The notes under the pieces: model-generated | What the model was told of the DNA's origin: nothing | Seen by the model: the letters and a program-made list of their open reading frames with translations, nothing else | Databases searched by the model: none | Origin: a virus | Length of the DNA: 51,327 nucleotides | Strand: one strand, 5' to 3' | IMG/VR virus record: IMGVR_UViG_3300010354_000127 | Location: 1 to 51,327 of that record | Position numbers and translations under genes: made by a program | Part shown: positions 9,230 through 51,327 of the stretch, in pieces | Layout of the letters: every line of letters starts with the position of its first letter | Position numbering within the stretch: the first letter of the stretch is position 1

Positions 9230-9489
9230 TGGAGCTCATTCACCAGGACGACCACGACTGGAGCCTTCGCCCGCGCTGGCGGGTCGAGCGCCAGCCGGAT
9301 GGCACGACGAACCCTTATCTGGTCCGCTTCATCAAGCAGGGCCCGGCCCGCAAGCTGCTCGACCAGATCGCCGAGTGGGATCCTGACGCCAAGGTCTGGG
9401 GCTCCAGGCGCTGGGTGCCGAAGCACCCGCTGGTGCCACACACGCTCCTCGCGATCGTCGAGGCCCACATGCGGGAGGTGAGGGCCTGA
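9229..9489 (+). CDS. Unknown protein, 86 aa
   Basis: Coupled to both neighbours (ATG overlaps the previous stop, stop overlaps the methyltransferase ATG). Basic, W-rich sequence (DHDWSLRPRWRVERQ, DPDAKVWGSRRWVPKHP). No domain recognised. The coupling to a methyltransferase suggests a shared job, perhaps as an accessory protein. Confidence 0.6.
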   Translation: MELIHQDDHDWSLRPRWRVERQPDGTTNPYLVRFIKQGPARKLLDQIAEWDPDAKVWGSRRWVPKHPLVPHTLLAIVEAHMREVRA

Positions 9490-10898
9490 TGTTCAACCCC
9501 GACTTCTACCCCACGCCGCCGGAGGTGGCGGCCACCATGCTCGATCCCCTCGACCTTCGCGGTCGGGTCGTGGTCGAGCCGTCAGCCGGTAGCGGCAACC
9601 TGGTGCGCGAGTGCCAGGCCCGGGGCGCCGCCGACGTGCTGACGGTGGAGCCTGAGCCGAAGCTGCGGGCCATCCTCACCGCCATCCCCGACAGCCGCCT
9701 GATCGGCGCCGACTGGCGCCAGGTCACGGCCGACCAGATCAGCCACGCCGATCTGATCGTGATGAACCCTCCGTTCTCGGCGGACGAGCACCACATCCTG
9801 CACGCCTGGGCCATCGCGCCGGCTGGCTGCCAGATCGTGAGCCTGTGCAACTGGAGCATCGTCACCAGCGACCGCTGGGGCAGCAGGGCCAGCAGGGAGC
9901 TGCGCACGCTGATCGAGCAGTACGGCAGCCGCCAGAACCTTGGCTCGGTGTTCGAGGACGCAGAGCGCACGACGCTCTGCGAGATCGGCCTAGTGCGGCT
10001 GACGAAGCCCGGCGATCGGCCCGGCGCCGACGAGTTCGACGGCTTCTTCCTGGGGCCTGACGACCTCGAGGCCGAGGGCCATGGCCTGATCAAGTATCGG
10101 CGCAGCCGCGAGCTGGTGCAGCGCTACGTCGAGGCCTGCCGCATCTATGACGAGCAGCTGGCCGCCGGCGTGCGCCTCGAGGCGGCAGTGGGCGGCATCT
10201 ACAAGGGCGAGCTGGGCATCCAGATCAGGATGGAAGGCTGCGCCGCCAGCCGGAACCGCTTCCGCAAGGAGCTGCAGAAGGCCTTCTGGGAGTCGGTGAT
10301 CGCCGAGATGCTCCCGCGCGAGATGGCCACCTCACAGCTGCAGGGCGACATCAACCGGTTCGTGGAGCAGCAGACCAAGGTGCCGTTCACGGAGCGGAAC
10401 CTGTTCAGGATGTTGCAGATCATCGCTGGCACCACTGACCAGCGGATCGATCGGGCCGTCGAGGCAGCGTTCGATGAGCTCACCCGCCACACCGCCGAGA
10501 ACCGGTGGCAGGTGGAGGGCTGGAAGACGAACGACGCCTACCTGTTCAATCAGAAGTTCATCGTCCCCTACCTTGCCGAGAAGAACTGGAGCGGCCTGGG
10601 TGTGGACCTGAAGCAGTGGGGCGGCAACTTCCCGCGCATCAGGGATCTAATCAAGGCGCTCTGCTACATCACCGGCAGGCCTTATGCCGAGGTGGAGCAT
10701 CCCGCATGTGGCTACGACCGGGTGGAGCCCGGTGTGTGGCACGACTGGGGGTTCTTCGAGTTCAAGGTCTACAAGAAGGGCACCGGCCACTTCCGGTTCA
10801 AGGACCAGGAGGACTGGGCGGCGCTGAATGCCAGGGTCGCCCGGATCAAGGGGCTGACCCTGCCGGAGAAGCTTCGGCGCCGGAAGGCCGCGGCCTGA
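9489..10898 (+). CDS. Adenine-type DNA methyltransferase with DUF4942-like C-terminus
   Basis: 469 aa. The N-terminal Rossmann methyltransferase has motif I EPSAGSGNL (30-38) for SAM binding and motif IV NPPF (93-96), typical of N6-adenine or related amino methyltransferases. The C-terminal half (about 190-460: FRKELQKAFWESVI, FTERNLFRMLQIIAGT, FNQKFIVPY) matches the phage DUF4942 block often joined to such methyltransferases. No restriction partner is nearby, so a protective (anti-restriction) or regulatory role is likely. Translationally coupled to the preceding small gene. Confidence 0.82.
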   Translation: MFNPDFYPTPPEVAATMLDPLDLRGRVVVEPSAGSGNLVRECQARGAADVLTVEPEPKLRAILTAIPDSRLIGADWRQVTADQISHADLIVMNPPFSADEHHILHAWAIAPAGCQIVSLCNWSIVTSDRWGSRASRELRTLIEQYGSRQNLGSVFEDAERTTLCEIGLVRLTKPGDRPGADEFDGFFLGPDDLEAEGHGLIKYRRSRELVQRYVEACRIYDEQLAAGVRLEAAVGGIYKGELGIQIRMEGCAASRNRFRKELQKAFWESVIAEMLPREMATSQLQGDINRFVEQQTKVPFTERNLFRMLQIIAGTTDQRIDRAVEAAFDELTRHTAENRWQVEGWKTNDAYLFNQKFIVPYLAEKNWSGLGVDLKQWGGNFPRIRDLIKALCYITGRPYAEVEHPACGYDRVEPGVWHDWGFFEFKVYKKGTGHFRFKDQEDWAALNARVARIKGLTLPEKLRRRKAAA

Positions 10899-12368: not shown

Positions 12369-12586
12369 TGTACGGCCTGAAGCGCGCCGGGCAGTGGGTT
12401 TCTGCCGGCTCCCCCGTGATCAACGGGCTCATCCCCGCGACCATCCTGCTGTCGGACGACAGCCGCGACGCCTGGCTGTCGCCCACCCTGGACGACGCCC
12501 TAGAGCGCCGGACGCTGCTGCAGATGGTCTTCGGCCTCACCACCGAGGTGAGGCCCCTTCGCCCTTCTACCTCCCGCGACGAATGA
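12368..12586 (+). CDS. Small unknown protein, 72 aa
   Basis: ATG at 12368, coupled at both ends (TGATG before, ATGA into the dCTP-deaminase-like gene). Sequence MYGLKRAGQWVSAGSPVINGL then SRDAWLSPTLDDALERRTLLQMVFGL. No domain recognised. Coupling suggests it acts with the nucleotide enzyme. Confidence 0.55.
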   Translation: MYGLKRAGQWVSAGSPVINGLIPATILLSDDSRDAWLSPTLDDALERRTLLQMVFGLTTEVRPLRPSTSRDE

Positions 12587-13092
12587 TCCTCCCTGACTTC
12601 CAGATCCGCCGGCTGTGCGAGGCCGGCATGGTCGAGCCGTTTGATCCGGCCCTGGTGAACCCCGCCTCGCTGGATGTGCGGCTGGGGCACAAGCTCCTGA
12701 TCGAGGGGGCCGAGAGTCGCCGGATGGTGTCCTACCCGTTCCACACCCACACCGAGGAGGAGCCGTATCTGCTGGTGGCCGGCCAGTTCGTGCTCGCCCC
12801 GACGCTGGAGTTCGTGCGGGTGCCCGAGACCTGCAATGCGCAGTTCGTGCTGAAGTCGAGCAGGGCCAGGGAGGGGATCGAGCACCTGCTGGCTGGATAC
12901 CTCGATCCGGGGTTCCATGGGGTGATCACGCTGGAGCTGCACAACAGCCGGCAGCTGCATGCGGTGCCGATCTGGCCTGGGATGAAGATCGGCCAGCTTG
13001 TGTTCAGCCAGATGCTGGCGCCGCCGGAGCGCAGCTATGCCATGACGGGCCGCTACCAGGGCGACACGACCGTGATGGAGTCGAAGGGCTGA
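12583..13092 (+). CDS. dCTP deaminase/dUTPase-like enzyme
   Basis: 169 aa. Family motifs are in order: MILPDFQIRRL at the start, NPASLDVRLGHKLLI, the SSRAREGIEHLLAGYLDPGFHGVITLELHN block (Ser-Arg and the catalytic Glu of dCTP deaminases), and IGQLVFSQM. It would convert dCTP to dUTP, or also to dUMP in the bifunctional type, feeding dTMP synthesis and lowering dUTP. The ATG at 12583 overlaps the stop of the preceding gene. Clear family; exact product unresolved. Confidence 0.82.
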   Translation: MILPDFQIRRLCEAGMVEPFDPALVNPASLDVRLGHKLLIEGAESRRMVSYPFHTHTEEEPYLLVAGQFVLAPTLEFVRVPETCNAQFVLKSSRAREGIEHLLAGYLDPGFHGVITLELHNSRQLHAVPIWPGMKIGQLVFSQMLAPPERSYAMTGRYQGDTTVMESKG

Positions 13093-17741: not shown

Positions 17742-18197
17742 TGCTGTATCAGCAGCGCACACTTATCACCCAGATCGCTTGCGCTGCAGTCGATGTCTTA
17801 TTGAGAACCGCTGAGAATGGCCGATTGTGAACGGATGTAACGCAGGCCAGTGTGACACCTGTGGAAATCGAGTTCTCCACAGGTACGCCCGTACCAGTTC
17901 GGCCAGATCCCTTGCGCCGCAATGTATCTCGGCTGTGGTACGCCCGTATCATTGGGCCTCATTCGGTATCGCCCTGATACCAACGCTGCAACGCCTTGTG
18001 CCAATTTCGGCCCGTTCCGTGTGCAGCGAGTGTGCCAATTTTTTCTGATAGTGCCACTTGCTCACCGGCACACGCACCGGCAGACCCGTTGCGCTGCAGT
18101 CGATCTCGCCGATCTTGGTACGCCCGTACCAGCCGCGTCGGCGCCGCGTCGTGCAACGCCTTGCAGCACATTGGAGCGGTCCCACGCACCACCCCCC
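17742..18197 (+). repeat. Non-coding repeat region with GGTACGCCCGTACC hairpins
   Basis: 456 bp without a credible gene and with lower GC. GGTAC-GCCC-GTACC hairpins lie at 17882-17895, 17937-17950 (imperfect) and 18117-18130; a related GGTATC-GCCCT-GATACC at 17965-17981. TTGCGCTGCAGTCGAT recurs at 17779-17794 and 18089-18104, with a diverged form at 17912. GCAACGCCTTG recurs at 17988 and 18153, GTGCCAATTT at 17998 and 18032. It looks like two to three diverged units of roughly 170-180 bp. Confidence 0.6.
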
Positions 18198-46840: not shown

Positions 46841-48754
46841 TCAGTCCCAGAACGACGACCTGGCCGGTGCCGGCGCCGACTCCGCTGCATCGTCCTCGCG
46901 CTTCGTCTCCACCGGCTGCGGCCGCGCCACACCACCCGACGCCTCCTCGTCCCATCGCTCGTCGCTCCACCGGTCAGCACCCACCAGGGCGGCCGCGGCC
47001 CGGGCATAGACCCGGCAGTCCAGCGCCTCGTTCCGGGGCCGGGTCTTGATCCACTCGAACCGGGTGTAGCCCCGCCGGTCGACCGTGTTCGTCAGCCGCT
47101 CGGCGCACAGCTGCCGGAACCACTCCTCCCCATACTGCGGGAAGTGGCACCAGCCATGGGGCAGCGGCTCACCCTGATCTGGCATCGGCCGCCGCAGCCA
47201 GCCGTAGAGCTCGCTCTTCACCGTGCCGCTACCCACCGGCCAGACCTTCACGCCACCGCGCAGCGGCCGGCCATTGCGCAGCACCTCCACCCGGCCAGGC
47301 GTGCCGATGATCGCCGTCTGCGTCTCCTGGCCCTTGATGGCGATCACCCGATGCCCGGCCTGGCCACGCACCCAGCGGTAGACCTCCTGGCTCCTGAAGC
47401 CCGAGTCGATCGCCGTCATCCTGATCGGCAGCCGCTGCCCATCACCCCGGCCGAACTCCGACCGCACGAACCGGCTCAGCTCTCGCCACACCTCTGGCTG
47501 CGCCGTGTCGCCCGCCAGCACCTGGTAGTCCAGGCTCCAGCTCTCCATCCCGCGGCCCCAGCCCACCACCTCCAGCTCGATCCGATCCATCTGCACGTCG
47601 ATGCCGCAGGTGAGGAACACCACCGGGTCGGGCACCGTGCCCAGCTCATAGACCTCGCGGCGGTTGTAGAGCGCCTCCCAGTCCGGCGCCTCGCCGTCGT
47701 CGTTCCAGCATTCCGCCAGCACCGTGTTGGTCCAGGGCTTCAGCTCCGCCGGGTTGTCCTTCGCCTTCTCGTAGCCCACCACCGCATCGGTCCAGCTGAA
47801 CCATCCCAGCGGCGCATAGAGCGCCGAGCAGTGGTAGCCCTGCACGCTCCGCTCGGGGAACGTCGGCTCCCACCAGTCGTCGGTGAAGACCTCGGGGTCA
47901 TACCACCAGGCCTTCGTGTCCTCCTCAATCCCCTCGCCACACTCCTCGCAGATCAGCACCGGCGGGGTCCGCAGCGTGTTCGGCAGGCCAGGGTCCTTCG
48001 GGTCGTACCGGATCCGGTCCCACACGATCGACTGCCGATGATTGCAGTGCGGGCAGGGCAGCAGCAGGTGCTGCTGGTTGCTGTCCTCCCACTTCGACCA
48101 GATCGCGCTGCGGCCCGCGATCGTCGGAGTCGACGTCCACGCTTGTTTCTTCCGCACGCCGAACGTTCGGGTGCGGGCCGTCACGATCGCCAGCGGGCTG
48201 CCTTCCTCGTCGACGTCGCTCGGCCACCGGTCGATCTCGTCCCCGCCCAGGTAGCGGATCGGCATCGAGGCCAGGCCGCTCGCGGCGTTCGCGCCACCGA
48301 GGATCAGGAAGCCCCCGGTGAACTCCTTCATCAGCTGCGTGTTGCCGCTGTCCCGCTCTCGCGGCGCCTTCACCTTCTCCTGCAAGCTCGGGCTCGCCTC
48401 GATCATCGGGGCGATGCGCATCTTGCTGTAGCGCTTCGCCAGATCGATCGTCGGCTGCACGAACAGCGCCGGCCCTGGCGCGATGTCCATCGTGTAGCCG
48501 GTCCAGTTGTTCAGCGCCTCGCTCTTCCCCATCTGGCTGCCGAACACCAGCACCACCTCCTGCACCGTGCTGGTGGCCGACAGGTCGTCCATCGGCTTCC
48601 GCAGGTAGGGCGTCCTGCTCGTCCGCCACGGACCGTGCTCACTCGAGGCCTTCGGGCTCAGGATCCGCCGCTGGTCCGCCCACTCGCTGACCGTCAGCAG
48701 CGGGTCCGGCTCCAGGCCCCGCCGGAACGCGCGCCGGCACTCCTCAATCAGCAT
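46841..48754 (-). CDS. Terminase large subunit (lambda gpA family)
   Basis: 637 aa. WRTSRTPYLRKPMDDLSATSTVQEVVLVFGSQMGKSEALNNW carries the Walker-A-like GSQMGKSE (72-79). MPIRYLGGDEIDRWPSDVDEEG holds the Walker B. A zinc site CPHC...CEEC is typical of gpA. The nuclease part begins at LTCGIDVQMDRIELEVVGWG with its Asp cluster. Cuts at cos and pumps DNA. Start overlaps the small subunit end. Confidence 0.95.
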   Translation of the reverse strand: MLIEECRRAFRRGLEPDPLLTVSEWADQRRILSPKASSEHGPWRTSRTPYLRKPMDDLSATSTVQEVVLVFGSQMGKSEALNNWTGYTMDIAPGPALFVQPTIDLAKRYSKMRIAPMIEASPSLQEKVKAPRERDSGNTQLMKEFTGGFLILGGANAASGLASMPIRYLGGDEIDRWPSDVDEEGSPLAIVTARTRTFGVRKKQAWTSTPTIAGRSAIWSKWEDSNQQHLLLPCPHCNHRQSIVWDRIRYDPKDPGLPNTLRTPPVLICEECGEGIEEDTKAWWYDPEVFTDDWWEPTFPERSVQGYHCSALYAPLGWFSWTDAVVGYEKAKDNPAELKPWTNTVLAECWNDDGEAPDWEALYNRREVYELGTVPDPVVFLTCGIDVQMDRIELEVVGWGRGMESWSLDYQVLAGDTAQPEVWRELSRFVRSEFGRGDGQRLPIRMTAIDSGFRSQEVYRWVRGQAGHRVIAIKGQETQTAIIGTPGRVEVLRNGRPLRGGVKVWPVGSGTVKSELYGWLRRPMPDQGEPLPHGWCHFPQYGEEWFRQLCAERLTNTVDRRGYTRFEWIKTRPRNEALDCRVYARAAAALVGADRWSDERWDEEASGGVARPQPVETKREDDAAESAPAPARSSFWD

Positions 48755-49316
48755 CGGCCGCCAACCCCTCCAGGGCCTTCACGATATGGCGCTCCAGTAC
48801 CAGCAGCACCTCCGCACGCTGCTCCGGCGTCAGCCCCCCGGCCGCCCGGGCGATGTCGCCGATCATCAGCTGCGGAGTCCGCCGCAGCGAGTCGCGCACC
48901 CGCTGGCCCTCCTCGAACCACACCCGCTCCACATCCGCCTTCGGCACCAGCTGGCCCTGGCGCTCCTTCAGATCCAGCTCGAGGAGCTTCGCCTGGTAGA
49001 GCGTCCGCAGCGCCTGGGCCTGCGCATGGCTCGGCGCCTTCGCCAGCACATCCGTGCCGCTGCCCGCGCTCGGTGGCTGCCGCCCCTCGATCTCCCGCGC
49101 GCGCTCCGCCGCCTTGCCCCGCTGCTTCGCCGGTGACGTGTTCCGCTGCCATTCCCGGTCCGCAATCTCTGGATCGATCAGCCACCCAGGCCGCCCGGGC
49201 CGGCCGTTCGCCTCCCGCTTCGCGCCCTCCTTGATCCGACCTTCCGCAATCGCCTTCCGCACCGCACGGCCAGACACTCCGCGCTGCTCTGCGTAGTCGT
49301 CGAGGGAGATCAGCAC
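48744..49316 (-). CDS. Terminase small subunit (Nu1-like)
   Basis: 190 aa with a GTG start at 49316. ISLDDYAEQRGVSGRAVRKAIAEGRIKEG is a Nu1-type winged HTH for cosB; QALRTLYQAKLLELDLKERQGQLVPKADVERVWFEEGQRVRDSLRRTPQLM is the family helical region that joins the large subunit. Expected targets are GGAACC-type repeats near the window ends. Confidence 0.88.
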   Translation of the reverse strand: MLISLDDYAEQRGVSGRAVRKAIAEGRIKEGAKREANGRPGRPGWLIDPEIADREWQRNTSPAKQRGKAAERAREIEGRQPPSAGSGTDVLAKAPSHAQAQALRTLYQAKLLELDLKERQGQLVPKADVERVWFEEGQRVRDSLRRTPQLMIGDIARAAGGLTPEQRAEVLLVLERHIVKALEGLAADAD

Positions 49317-49588
49317 AGCTCAACGAAGAAGCCTTGCTCCGCCAGCTTCCTGCCCACACCAGGCGGGAACGGGCCCACCAGCTGAATCGGCGTGTCGGTG
49401 CCGGTCATCCCGCGCACCAGCGCCACCAGCTGGTCGATCAGCATCACGGTGTGGCCGCGGCCCTCCAGCATCTCGTCGACCGTCACCTCAGGGCCCACAG
49501 CACCGAACCGGATGCGCATCGGCCAGGCCCTCACGTGACCGTCCTCGCCCCACTGGCAGCCATACCCGATCTGCGCAACCTCAATCAT
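49310..49588 (-). CDS. Unknown protein, 92 aa
   Basis: From the ATG at 49588. VAQIGYGCQWGEDGHVRAWPMRIRFGAVGPEVTVDEMLEGRGHTVMLIDQLVALVRGMTGTDTPIQLVGPFPPGVGRKLAEQGFFVELC. No family recognised. It overlaps the genes on both sides, so it is translated with the packaging group. Confidence 0.55.
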   Translation of the reverse strand: MIEVAQIGYGCQWGEDGHVRAWPMRIRFGAVGPEVTVDEMLEGRGHTVMLIDQLVALVRGMTGTDTPIQLVGPFPPGVGRKLAEQGFFVELC

Positions 49589-49964
49589 CGAACCCGGCAA
49601 CGAACGGCCTGATGCAGCTGGCAGGCGCATCCTGCCAGGGCATGAGCACCTGGGTGCCGCGGCTTGCCGTCATCACTCCCGACCCAACCGGGCACACGCG
49701 CACCCATGACCAGAGCTCAGCGATCTCCACCCGCAGGTAGCGGGGTGGCGCCTCGAGGACGCCATAGACCAGCAGGCCACCGGCCCGTGGTCGCTCCGTC
49801 ACCTCCAGCCCCAGCCGGTCGGCCAGCGCCCACGCCAGCAGCAGGCCGCCACGGTCCATCCCGCACACGCCAGTCAGATCTCGTCGACACTGCGCCGCAA
49901 TCAGGTCCACTGCCGCGTCGAAGCCCGCCCAAGTCAGCGTCAGCAGCGGCCCGTCGCTGCTCAT
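49581..49964 (-). CDS. Phosphoribosyltransferase-like protein, putative
   Basis: 127 aa from the ATG at 49964. TGVCGMDRGGLLLAWALADRLGLEVT resembles the PRTase-fold region found in phage and plasmid proteins (G.....GG...A..LA..LG). The usual PRPP-binding acidic loop is not obvious, so it may be a degenerate PRTase-fold protein. Overlaps both neighbours. Confidence 0.5.
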   Translation of the reverse strand: MSSDGPLLTLTWAGFDAAVDLIAAQCRRDLTGVCGMDRGGLLLAWALADRLGLEVTERPRAGGLLVYGVLEAPPRYLRVEIAELWSWVRVCPVGSGVMTASRGTQVLMPWQDAPASCIRPFVAGFDD

Positions 49965-50413
49965 CCCTTCCCCGGCACCCACGCCTTGTTCAGCCCGCGG
50001 CCGCGGCCCACCTGCGCAGGCATCCCAGCGCGGTTCACCAGGCGTTGCACCTCCTCGCGCTCCATCCCCAGCCGCTTCTGGATCGTGCGCTCTGGCACTC
50101 CCTCGTCCACCATCCGCCGCACAATGTCCGCCATCCGCAGCACACCATGCGTGCCCCGGGCTCGGTTGTGGCGGATGGTGCTCATCATCCGGTGCACCGG
50201 ATCCAGACGCACCTGCACAGTAGGCACCAGGCCGCCCGTCAGGCCGGCCACTCGCGGATCCGCGCTCACCGTCCACCGGTGGAAGCCATCCACGATCACG
50301 TGGCGGCCATCCACCTCGGGCAGCACCACGGCATAGACCCGCGTGCCGATCTCCTCCAGATCCAGCAGCAGGTCGTTCCGCAGCTTCAGTCCCTCAAACG
50401 CCCGTTCGAGCAT
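49961..50413 (-). CDS. ParB-like protein (1)
   Basis: 150 aa. The ParB core is visible as HVIVDGFHRWTVSADPRV and VPTVQVRLDPVHRMMSTIRHNRARGTHG, followed by an HTH-like part (ADIVRRMVDEGVPERTIQKRLGMEREEVQRLVNRAGM). Without ParA in the window, a role in plasmid-like partition is unlikely; phage ParB-like proteins often act as nucleases or DNA-binding regulators. Overlaps its neighbours. Confidence 0.7.
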   Translation of the reverse strand: MLERAFEGLKLRNDLLLDLEEIGTRVYAVVLPEVDGRHVIVDGFHRWTVSADPRVAGLTGGLVPTVQVRLDPVHRMMSTIRHNRARGTHGVLRMADIVRRMVDEGVPERTIQKRLGMEREEVQRLVNRAGMPAQVGRGRGLNKAWVPGKG

Positions 50414-51128
50414 CCATCCACTCCCGGCAGACCTTCACCAACGCCTCTGGCGTCCCCTCCAGTCCGCTCGCCTCCTTCGCCATCCGCACCGCGCTCAGCA
50501 CTACCTCGCGGTCATCCCACGGCAGGTTCACGCTGAAGACATGGCGCTCCTCCACCTCGCCGCTCTCGGCGGTCGCGTCCGCATCGTCGTCATCGTCCTC
50601 ACCCACGGGCCCCAGGCCCAGGCCTTCCTGCCGCTCCGGCTCCGCCCGCTCCGTCCCGGCAGCAGCAGCCACGCCCTCGAACGATCCCAGGTCCAGGTCA
50701 TCCTGCAGCCGCTGCAGCTCGTCGTCGCTCCAGCCCAGCGCCTCCAGGTCGAAGTCCTCCACCCGCAGCGCCTCGAGCTCCTGCTGCAGCAGCTCCAGAT
50801 CCCAGCCCGCGTTCTCCGCCAGCCGGTTGTCGGCCAGCACATAGGCCCGCCGCTGCTCAGCCGTCAGGTGGTCGAGCACCACCACCGGCACCTGGGCCAG
50901 GCCCAGCCGTCGCGCCGCCTCCAGTCGCCCATGCCCGGCCAGGATCCCGTCCTGCCCGTCCACCAGGATCGGCGCCGTGAAGCCGAACTCCTGGATCGAC
51001 GCCTGGATCTGTTCCAGCTGGCGCTCGGAATGGGTCCTGGCGTTCCGCTCATACGGCTGGAGCCGCTCCAGCGGCCACAGCTCCAACCGTGACGCCATCG
51101 TCGGCGCCTTGCCTTTGCGCTTCGTCAT
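50394..51128 (-). CDS. ParB-like protein (2), lacking the usual methyltransferase
   Basis: 244 aa from the ATG at 51128, first gene of the late convoy. LELWPLERLQPYERNARTHSERQLEQIQASIQEFGFTAPILVDGQDGILAGHGRLEAARRLGLAQVPVVVLDHL is the ParB N-terminal fold that in many phages is fused to a DNA methyltransferase. Here an acidic stretch (GEDDDDDADATAESG) and a short C-terminal domain (VFSVNLPWDDREVVLSAVRMAKEAS) follow instead. Confidence 0.82.
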   Translation of the reverse strand: MTKRKGKAPTMASRLELWPLERLQPYERNARTHSERQLEQIQASIQEFGFTAPILVDGQDGILAGHGRLEAARRLGLAQVPVVVLDHLTAEQRRAYVLADNRLAENAGWDLELLQQELEALRVEDFDLEALGWSDDELQRLQDDLDLGSFEGVAAAAGTERAEPERQEGLGLGPVGEDDDDDADATAESGEVEERHVFSVNLPWDDREVVLSAVRMAKEASGLEGTPEALVKVCREWMDARTGV

Positions 51129-51327
51129 GCGGTCATCAGATCACAGCAGGCTCAGTTTCGGAACCTGACGGAACATCCGCCGGCATCCTCAGTGATCAGA
51201 AAACCCGCCAGAACCTCCTGATTCCCGGTCGCAATTAGCGCGGTCTATTGAGAACCGCAGTCATAGCAGGCGGTTTCGGAACCCATTCTGGAACCTGGCC
51301 CTAGCGAAAAATCGGGGCTCGCGGACC
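51129..51327. other. Putative cosB/cosN region with GGAACC elements
   Basis: No gene is seen. TTTCGGAACC occurs at 51156-51165 and 51274-51283, and TTCTGGAACC at 51287-51296, with a half site at about 51169. Downstream the bases 51317-51327 equal 1-11. Across the joined ends GGG-CGCG-CCC shows partial dyad symmetry. In lambda, Nu1 binds repeated sites between cosN and the terminase genes; the repeats here are in that position. A promoter for the late operon should also lie here, but no convincing box was found. Confidence 0.55.
51317..51327. repeat. Terminal direct repeat, right copy
   Basis: Same 11 bases as the start of the window. The partial dyad GGGnnCGCGnnCCC is centred within it when the ends are joined. 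Confidence 0.7.

Follow-up and report, generated by a model that had tools for sequence, protein, structure and literature searches.

A probable remnant of a DNA-modification island between cos and the terminase genes of a viral genome

The viral record IMGVR_UViG_3300010354_000127 of IMG/VR (51,327 bp, analysed at its full length and hereafter called the window) carries on its minus strand a block of genes that starts about 200 bp from the right end and leads into the terminase genes. The first gene, ParB-A (50394-51128, 244 aa), is followed by an open reading frame (ORF) of 150 aa (49961-50413), a degenerate phosphoribosyltransferase-like (PRTase-like) protein of 127 aa (49581-49964), a conserved 106-aa protein (49310-49630) without a match in Pfam and PHROG scans, the terminase small subunit TerS (48744-49316; phrog_57) and the large subunit TerL (46841-48754), in which Pfam recognises GpA ATPase and nuclease domains. 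In the ORF map successive genes overlap at every pair from ParB-A to TerL; an earlier note on this DNA had remarked such overlaps for the two ParB-like genes. We suggest that these genes are probably the remains of a DNA-modification (anti-restriction) island between cos and terminase, from which the module has been deleted.

Judged by its alignments, the 150-aa ORF is an in-frame deletion chimera that joins the start of a cupin gene to the rear of a second ParB gene, ParB-B. Its residues 1-27 agree at 24 of 27 positions with the cupin of an intact relative, L002, and its last 123 residues align with residues 50-172 of the L002 ParB-B (172 aa); matches to ParB families extend from about residue 30 onward (phrog_2159, E = 3e-33; best Pfam E = 0.14). 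Compared with the L002 locus, the window lacks 1,963 bp, comprising the cupin remainder, the whole gene for a phosphoadenosine phosphosulfate reductase-like (PAPSR-like) protein and approximately the first 49 ParB-B codons. The junction lies at 50329-50334 (minus strand), where similarity to intact ParB-B genes begins at base 50330 and cupin similarity ends at about 50334; the corresponding tblastn stretches (cupin 1-31, ParB-B from 37) overlap through chance run-on. The ORF has thus lost the front part of the ParB/Srx fold and holds no complete ParB_N domain, about 49 N-terminal ParB-B residues being gone. AlphaFold2 models of the chimera and of an intact ParB-B homologue, compared on the identical 22 aligned rows, agree with this picture: the chimera reached a predicted local distance difference test (pLDDT) score of 57 and a predicted template modelling (pTM) score of 0.36, with no PDB match in Foldseek at E ≤ 1e-3, and the intact protein reached 69 and 0.53, with 40 PDB matches at the same threshold, headed by ParB, Noc and KorB and then by SbnI and sulfiredoxin. 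The scar ORF probably lacks ParB-B activity. Two different ParB-fold proteins had been proposed for this locus in the earlier note; the first of them, ParB-A, stands, but the second is a truncated chimera with a poor model and no structural matches.

Relatives of the 150-aa ORF were found in 409 viral stretches, of which the best 80 were fetched, and were joined to a TerL survey that disregarded the content of the slot (best 80 of 165). This gave 50 distinct loci, window included, chosen for holding a ParB-A match and TerL and sorted by hand: the module is present in 24, deleted in 17 and replaced by another cassette in 5, while 2 have an altered ParB-A and 2 are cut by the contig end. Some of the 24 module-present loci are cut by contig ends as well; L006, whose cupin is partial, was placed among the intact loci and left out of the frame scoring. 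L088 and L125 possess a different ParB-A C terminus, followed by nothing but prt or the 106-aa gene. The intact order is ParB-A, cupin, PAPSR-like PP-loop protein (IbrA-like), ParB-B (IbrB-like), PRTase-like gene, 106-aa gene, TerS and TerL. In L002 the cupin matches Cupin_2 (E = 1.5e-12) and the 390-aa PAPSR-like protein matches PF01507 (E = 3e-16) together with DUF3440 (E = 1e-11). A PAPSR gene on the same strand accompanies ParB-B in 58 of the 61 loci, among the 80 fetched, that have flanks of at least 1.3 kb, and the three loci without it are the deletion alleles L033, L034 and L053. A search of the window with PF01507 gave no match, so that the IbrA/IbrB pair is seen in the intact relatives and not in the window. 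Some relatives also carry a second ParB between ParB-B and the PRTase-like gene (L003:6431-8288, L004:2777-3913 and L009:5412-7255); a radical-SAM protein comes after it or DUF4417 is fused to it, and it is possibly part of a further modification module.

The module has been lost repeatedly. The deleted loci differ in the position of the junction. A TerL tree of 47 rows (L019 left out for its short TerL, L008 and L118 as contig-cut) demands a minimum of 12 changes into or out of the deleted state, and well-supported branches make 10 of these unavoidable; the tree by itself gives no direction for each change. Deleted and intact loci are sisters on this tree in L009/L134, L021/L089, L029/L105, L022/L123, L037/L129 and L003/window. 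Moreover, the scars tend to preserve the reading frame. Translating from the start of the left gene to the stop of the right-hand gene, a scoring made after the data had been seen, we found 12 of 17 scored alleles in frame (window, L053, L109, L105, L123, L135, L129, L089, L122, L158, L148 and L137; P = 0.0019 against a chance of one third). The weakest of these calls are L135, with five ParB-B residues, and L053, with a 9-codon cupin::PAPSR end; without the two, 10 of 15 remain in frame (P = 0.0085). L138 was omitted from the count as ambiguous, having two junctions, L142 and L097/L099 were taken as out of frame, L102 was pooled with L137, and L158 was added from genome contigs. The simplest reading would be that the overlapping terminase genes need an open frame running into them, as with translational coupling; alternatively, there may be selection for the scar peptides. 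In L053 (5116-6366), where cupin and PAPSR have been deleted, ParB-A and a full ParB-B are joined in a single long frame.

Microhomology at the junctions, read in 11 of the 17 deleted alleles, amounts to 12, 2, 7, 0, 4, 8, 9, 0, 2, 0 and 1 bp (the last being the window), where random joins average 0.9 bp and reach at least 7 bp with a probability of 0.002. Direct repeats of 7-12 bp are found at 4 of the 11 junctions. Microhomology was rejected as a general mechanism, as at least 7 bp are found in only 4 of 11 and none in 3, and the L134 alignment is poor (86/120).

Other gene sets are found in the same slot. A ParB::DNA-methyltransferase fusion occupies it in L111 (N6_N4_Mtase, E = 3e-25), in L112 (assigned by sequence) and in L119 (by layout), and a set of DpdA-like transglycosylase, QueC, FolE, QueD, PRTase and QueE occupies it in L149 (by Pfam) and L093 (by sequence). 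Pfam does not recognise the DpdA-like protein, which is 36% identical to a phage protein annotated as a 7-deazaguanosine inserting enzyme; the cassette PRTase, with its phosphoribosyl pyrophosphate (PRPP) motif, scores above the cut-off of Pfam Pribosyltran in L093 and below it in L149. No DpdA/Que genes lie between ParB-A and TerS in the window, the rest of which was not scanned for them. The slot thus evidently exchanges cassettes beside a constant terminase, and this variable content, be it methyltransferase, DpdA/Que or cupin-PAPSR-ParB, points to DNA modification.

ParB-A belongs to ParB_N (PF02195; E = 6.7e-7, 29.7 bits against a cut-off of 26.3), which bears out the ParB fold claimed earlier for the first protein, and matches phrog_620 (E = 1.2e-56) and, with its N domain, phrog_498 (E = 1.5e-52). 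Every one of the 55 loci that have a TerL of at least 60% identity and at least 3 kb upstream (duplicate contigs included) encodes a ParB-A-like protein, and ParB-A may, by analogy, be a ParB/sulfiredoxin-type helper of a DNA-modifying enzyme. The remark that a methyltransferase usually joined to it is missing was also apt, given the ParB::methyltransferase fusions in the slot of L111 and L112. The PRTase-like ORF is distantly related to PRTases (phrog_8995, E = 9e-5). Read by eye, the PRPP motif (VVDD..ETG type) is missing in 17 of 17 aligned orthologues and kept in 2 of 2 aligned cassette PRTases. Activity of the 127-aa protein was rejected on this ground, and it is best seen as a relative of the DpdA/Que-set PRTase that is unlikely to be catalytic.

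The right end of the record has the look of a true genome terminus. An identical stretch of 11 bp, GCTCGCGGACC (on the other strand GGTCCGCGAGC), stands at 1-11 and 51317-51327, and a conserved motif that flanks this cos candidate, CGATTTTTCGCTAG (51301-51314, minus strand), lies 13 nt inside the right end. The motif or a close variant occurs in 22 rows of relatives, 8 of which start exactly 13 nt before it, like the window; three of the eight (L007, L024 and L036) open with the window's own 11-mer and the others with variants. Fifteen loci duplicating other contigs are not part of this count, and the pattern used for it overlooks some variants of the motif; L022, L123 and L125 start at the cos site as well. 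Rows that run through the cos position have the same site or variants of it. We regard the record ends as cos because of the repeat and the coinciding contig starts, which together with the GpA-type ATPase and nuclease domains of TerL point to cos-type packaging; the record very probably spans the whole genome between its cos ends. The view that the ends are an arbitrary opening of a circular map was dropped, since the relatives' contigs start at the same place, and the earlier placing of these genes between cos and terminase is supported by the same evidence.

The deletion relative to the intact loci, the chimera, the repeated loss, the exchange of cassettes and the cos site can be read from the sequences themselves; what they mean for the phage is more conditional. 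The exchangeable sets probably alter phage DNA to hide it from the host. The constant ParB-A would help a swappable set of enzymes to modify the DNA before terminase packages it, by analogy with DpdB, and the swappable part would be cupin, PAPSR and ParB-B in the sister lineages and a methyltransferase fused to ParB-A or the DpdA/Que set elsewhere. From its position in the slot, we infer that cupin-PAPSR-ParB-B modifies DNA. A deletion of about 1.96 kb has removed the window's module and fused the cupin start to the ParB-B rear, leaving a scar ORF across which the operon runs on unbroken into the terminase genes. In its present host the window phage may manage without such modification, or it may rely on another gene, for which the methyltransferase-like protein encoded at 9489-10898 would be a candidate. 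More tentatively, cupin, PAPSR and ParB-B (IbrA/IbrB) might form an uncharacterised phage system of DNA hypermodification that shares a ParB cofactor with 7-deazaguanine and ParB-methyltransferase systems and can be exchanged for them, and whose recurrent losses by deletion survive mostly when the frame into terminase stays open; this more specific proposal is possible.

Several observations weigh against a modification island. No cysteine is invariant among 31 aligned PAPSR sequences and sulfur chemistry therefore cannot be read from PAPSR; the PAPSR-like protein as a sulfur mover was set aside as unsupported on the same alignment. The literature searched, which is not exhaustive, ties no demonstrated DNA modification to a phage PAPSR-ParB pair in the portions consulted, and annotation labels IbrA/IbrB as co-activators of prophage gene expression. 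The pair lies away from terminase in 3 of 8 named records, beside recombination or helicase genes (Mwe-JY13, Gaia) or lysis genes (CHPC1230). The ParB of DpdA phages resembles the window ParB-A only remotely (CRB2 gp1, 27%, E = 0.001), and Laurie gp1 is not among the hits listed for the window protein. Five of the 17 scored scars are out of frame (L033, L094, L134, L097 and L142). The window junction itself has 1 bp of microhomology and is known from one record; a degenerate back-translated pattern of it gave no match in other viral contigs of IMG/VR. Finally, the ParB-B remnant shows no decay: its nonsynonymous and synonymous divergence (dN/dS) from L002 is 0.044/0.238, close to the 0.036/0.287 between the intact L002 and L003, so that the remnant may be recent or still used; as evidence on the remnant the dN/dS comparison was judged not informative.

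Among the other explanations, one gives the pair of ParB-like proteins a part in controlling packaging or late transcription, by binding or nicking cos or nearby DNA and acting with terminase, much as the earlier note had proposed. ParB-A does lie between cos and terminase, the ParB genes of phages such as RcSwan and Vibrio X29 begin no more than some 200 bp into their records, and the in-frame scars suggest a coupling to terminase translation; ParB-A may also nick DNA, as nicking has been reported for a ParB-methylase in the part of PMC5512222 consulted. ParB-B, however, is lost or truncated in 16 of the 50 loci that keep TerS and TerL (the 17th deleted locus, L053, keeps ParB-B) and is thus unlikely to be needed for packaging, the module is replaced elsewhere by modification enzymes, and GGTACGCCCGTACC, a palindrome, is confined to 17.9-18.1 kb when up to 2 mismatches are allowed. 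For packaging control or late regulation as first put forward, adjacency is the sole point in favour and the content of the slot points to DNA modification, so that we consider this role unlikely.

The lost module could also have been an IbrA/IbrB pair that co-activates transcription of prophage and host genes and does not modify DNA, given that PF01507 and DUF3440 are paired with a ParB protein and that phage homologues are annotated as IbrA and IbrB. This appears doubtful, for DpdA/Que and methyltransferase sets occupy the same slot and the pair is near terminase in 5 of 8 named records (Wheelbite, PJN03, Gadjet, Baloo, and FCV-1, where it lies between TerL and portal). That the chimera is a metagenome assembly artefact is improbable. 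Its junction was matched in no further contig of IMG/VR and shows hardly any microhomology, but comparable deletions are found in many contigs, some of them shared, with identical spacing and scar, by two or three different assemblies (L094/L095/L151; L123/L147; L109 and the Cyanobium-binned L157), and misassembly would not favour the excess of in-frame scars. A plasmid-like partition locus, with the ParB of a replicating prophage, is hardly credible despite the ParB fold of the intact ParB-B homologue and its Foldseek matches to ParB, Noc and KorB, since the genes belong to the terminase operon and a search of the very probably complete record with PF13614, the sole ParA-type family searched, gave no match where controls were positive in 14 of 14 genomes, so that the absence of ParA and the exclusion of partition, both stated in the earlier note, hold as far as they were tested.

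The host is probably to be sought among freshwater picocyanobacteria, as relatives of TerL at 85-86% identity are found in contigs binned to Cyanobium sp. and to a Synechococcaceae metagenome-assembled genome, although binning is no proof of host. Elsewhere in the record, the 469-aa protein encoded at 9489-10898 (plus strand) matches the phage DNA methyltransferases phrog_799 and phrog_6263, its best match being phrog_32703 of unknown function, and is a possible second DNA-modification gene; a dCTP deaminase family match follows at 12394-13092 (plus strand; E = 1.3e-49). The palindrome GGTACGCCCGTACC is present at 17882-18130 in three copies within 250 bp, two exact and one with one mismatch (5 matches on both strands against 0.2 expected), about 32 kb from the ParB genes, and a stretch TTGCGCTGCAGTCGAT occurs twice near the copies, which are possibly operator or replication-control sites.

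Judging from portions of PMC10434257 and PMC11318856, annotations commonly assign phage 'PAPS reductase' genes to sulfur or host metabolism and 'ParB' genes to partition. The exchange of cassettes, with its counterpart in Mycobacterium phages, suggests one reason for ParB genes beside terminase genes and is a testable ground for seeking a new DNA modification in phages that have names and are in culture. The recurrent deletions, most of which preserve the frame, are natural knock-outs of the module.

Several known systems resemble the intact module in part. Both IbrA and IbrB (PF01507 and DUF3440 with a ParB protein) have counterparts in the intact relatives, the IbrB of CHPC1230 being 41% identical to the L002 ParB-B; the window, however, has no IbrA and a truncated IbrB, and the relatives add a cupin. 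The ParB::N6/N4 methyltransferase fusions of the phrog_498 type share the N domain of ParB-A and occupy the slot in L111 and L112, but the ParB-A of the window has no methyltransferase domain. In Dnd phosphorothioation, as described in parts of PMC12839542 and PMC10853773, a PAPSR-like DndC occurs with a ParB-like DndB, and a prophage PAPSR protein (gene 23, with gene 20 cysteine dioxygenase-like) has been likened to DndC in a passage of PMC8092301. The pairing of a PAPSR-like with a ParB-superfamily protein is the same, whereas no DndD or DndE is annotated in the stretches read of the 8 named PAPSR-ParB records and the 31 PAPSR sequences have no invariant cysteine for a sulfur relay. In Mycobacterium phage Gaia (L153, genes 103-104), PAPSR adjoins a protein annotated as ectoine synthase/ParB multidomain, by annotation a cupin-like/ParB fusion that would fit a cupin-ParB-PAPSR unit.

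Further parallels are found in named phages with known modification genes or with an intact module. Laurie (Rosebushvirus) and CRB2 (Quesadillavirus) carry ParB, a queuine tRNA-ribosyltransferase (DpdA-like), QueC, QueD, QueE, GTP cyclohydrolase (FolE) and terminase, that is, ParB first, then modification genes and then terminase, with a comparable set in the relatives L149 and L093; the window differs in having none of the Dpd/Que genes between ParB-A and TerS. Laurie is classified in Rosebushvirus, and the DNA of Rosebush is stated in the part of PMC6884629 consulted to carry dPreQ0 at about 28% of G. DpdB, a ParB-superfamily protein, is described as an ATPase that drives DpdA (PMC12839542, in part) and as its usual companion (PMC6392294, in part). 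Gadjet and Baloo (Mycobacterium phages, Pipefishvirus) have ParB, gp2, gp3, PAPSR, ParB-B and TerL at the record start, likewise in the order ParB-A, PAPSR, ParB-B and terminase, and Gadjet gp5 is 36% identical to the intact ParB-B of L002 (E = 2e-24). They differ from the window in that no cupin or PRTase-like gene is annotated and that the module is intact there. Judged from their gene orders, the Bclasvirinae, with Gadjet and Baloo on one side and Laurie and CRB2 on the other, show a like swap of cassettes beside the terminase.

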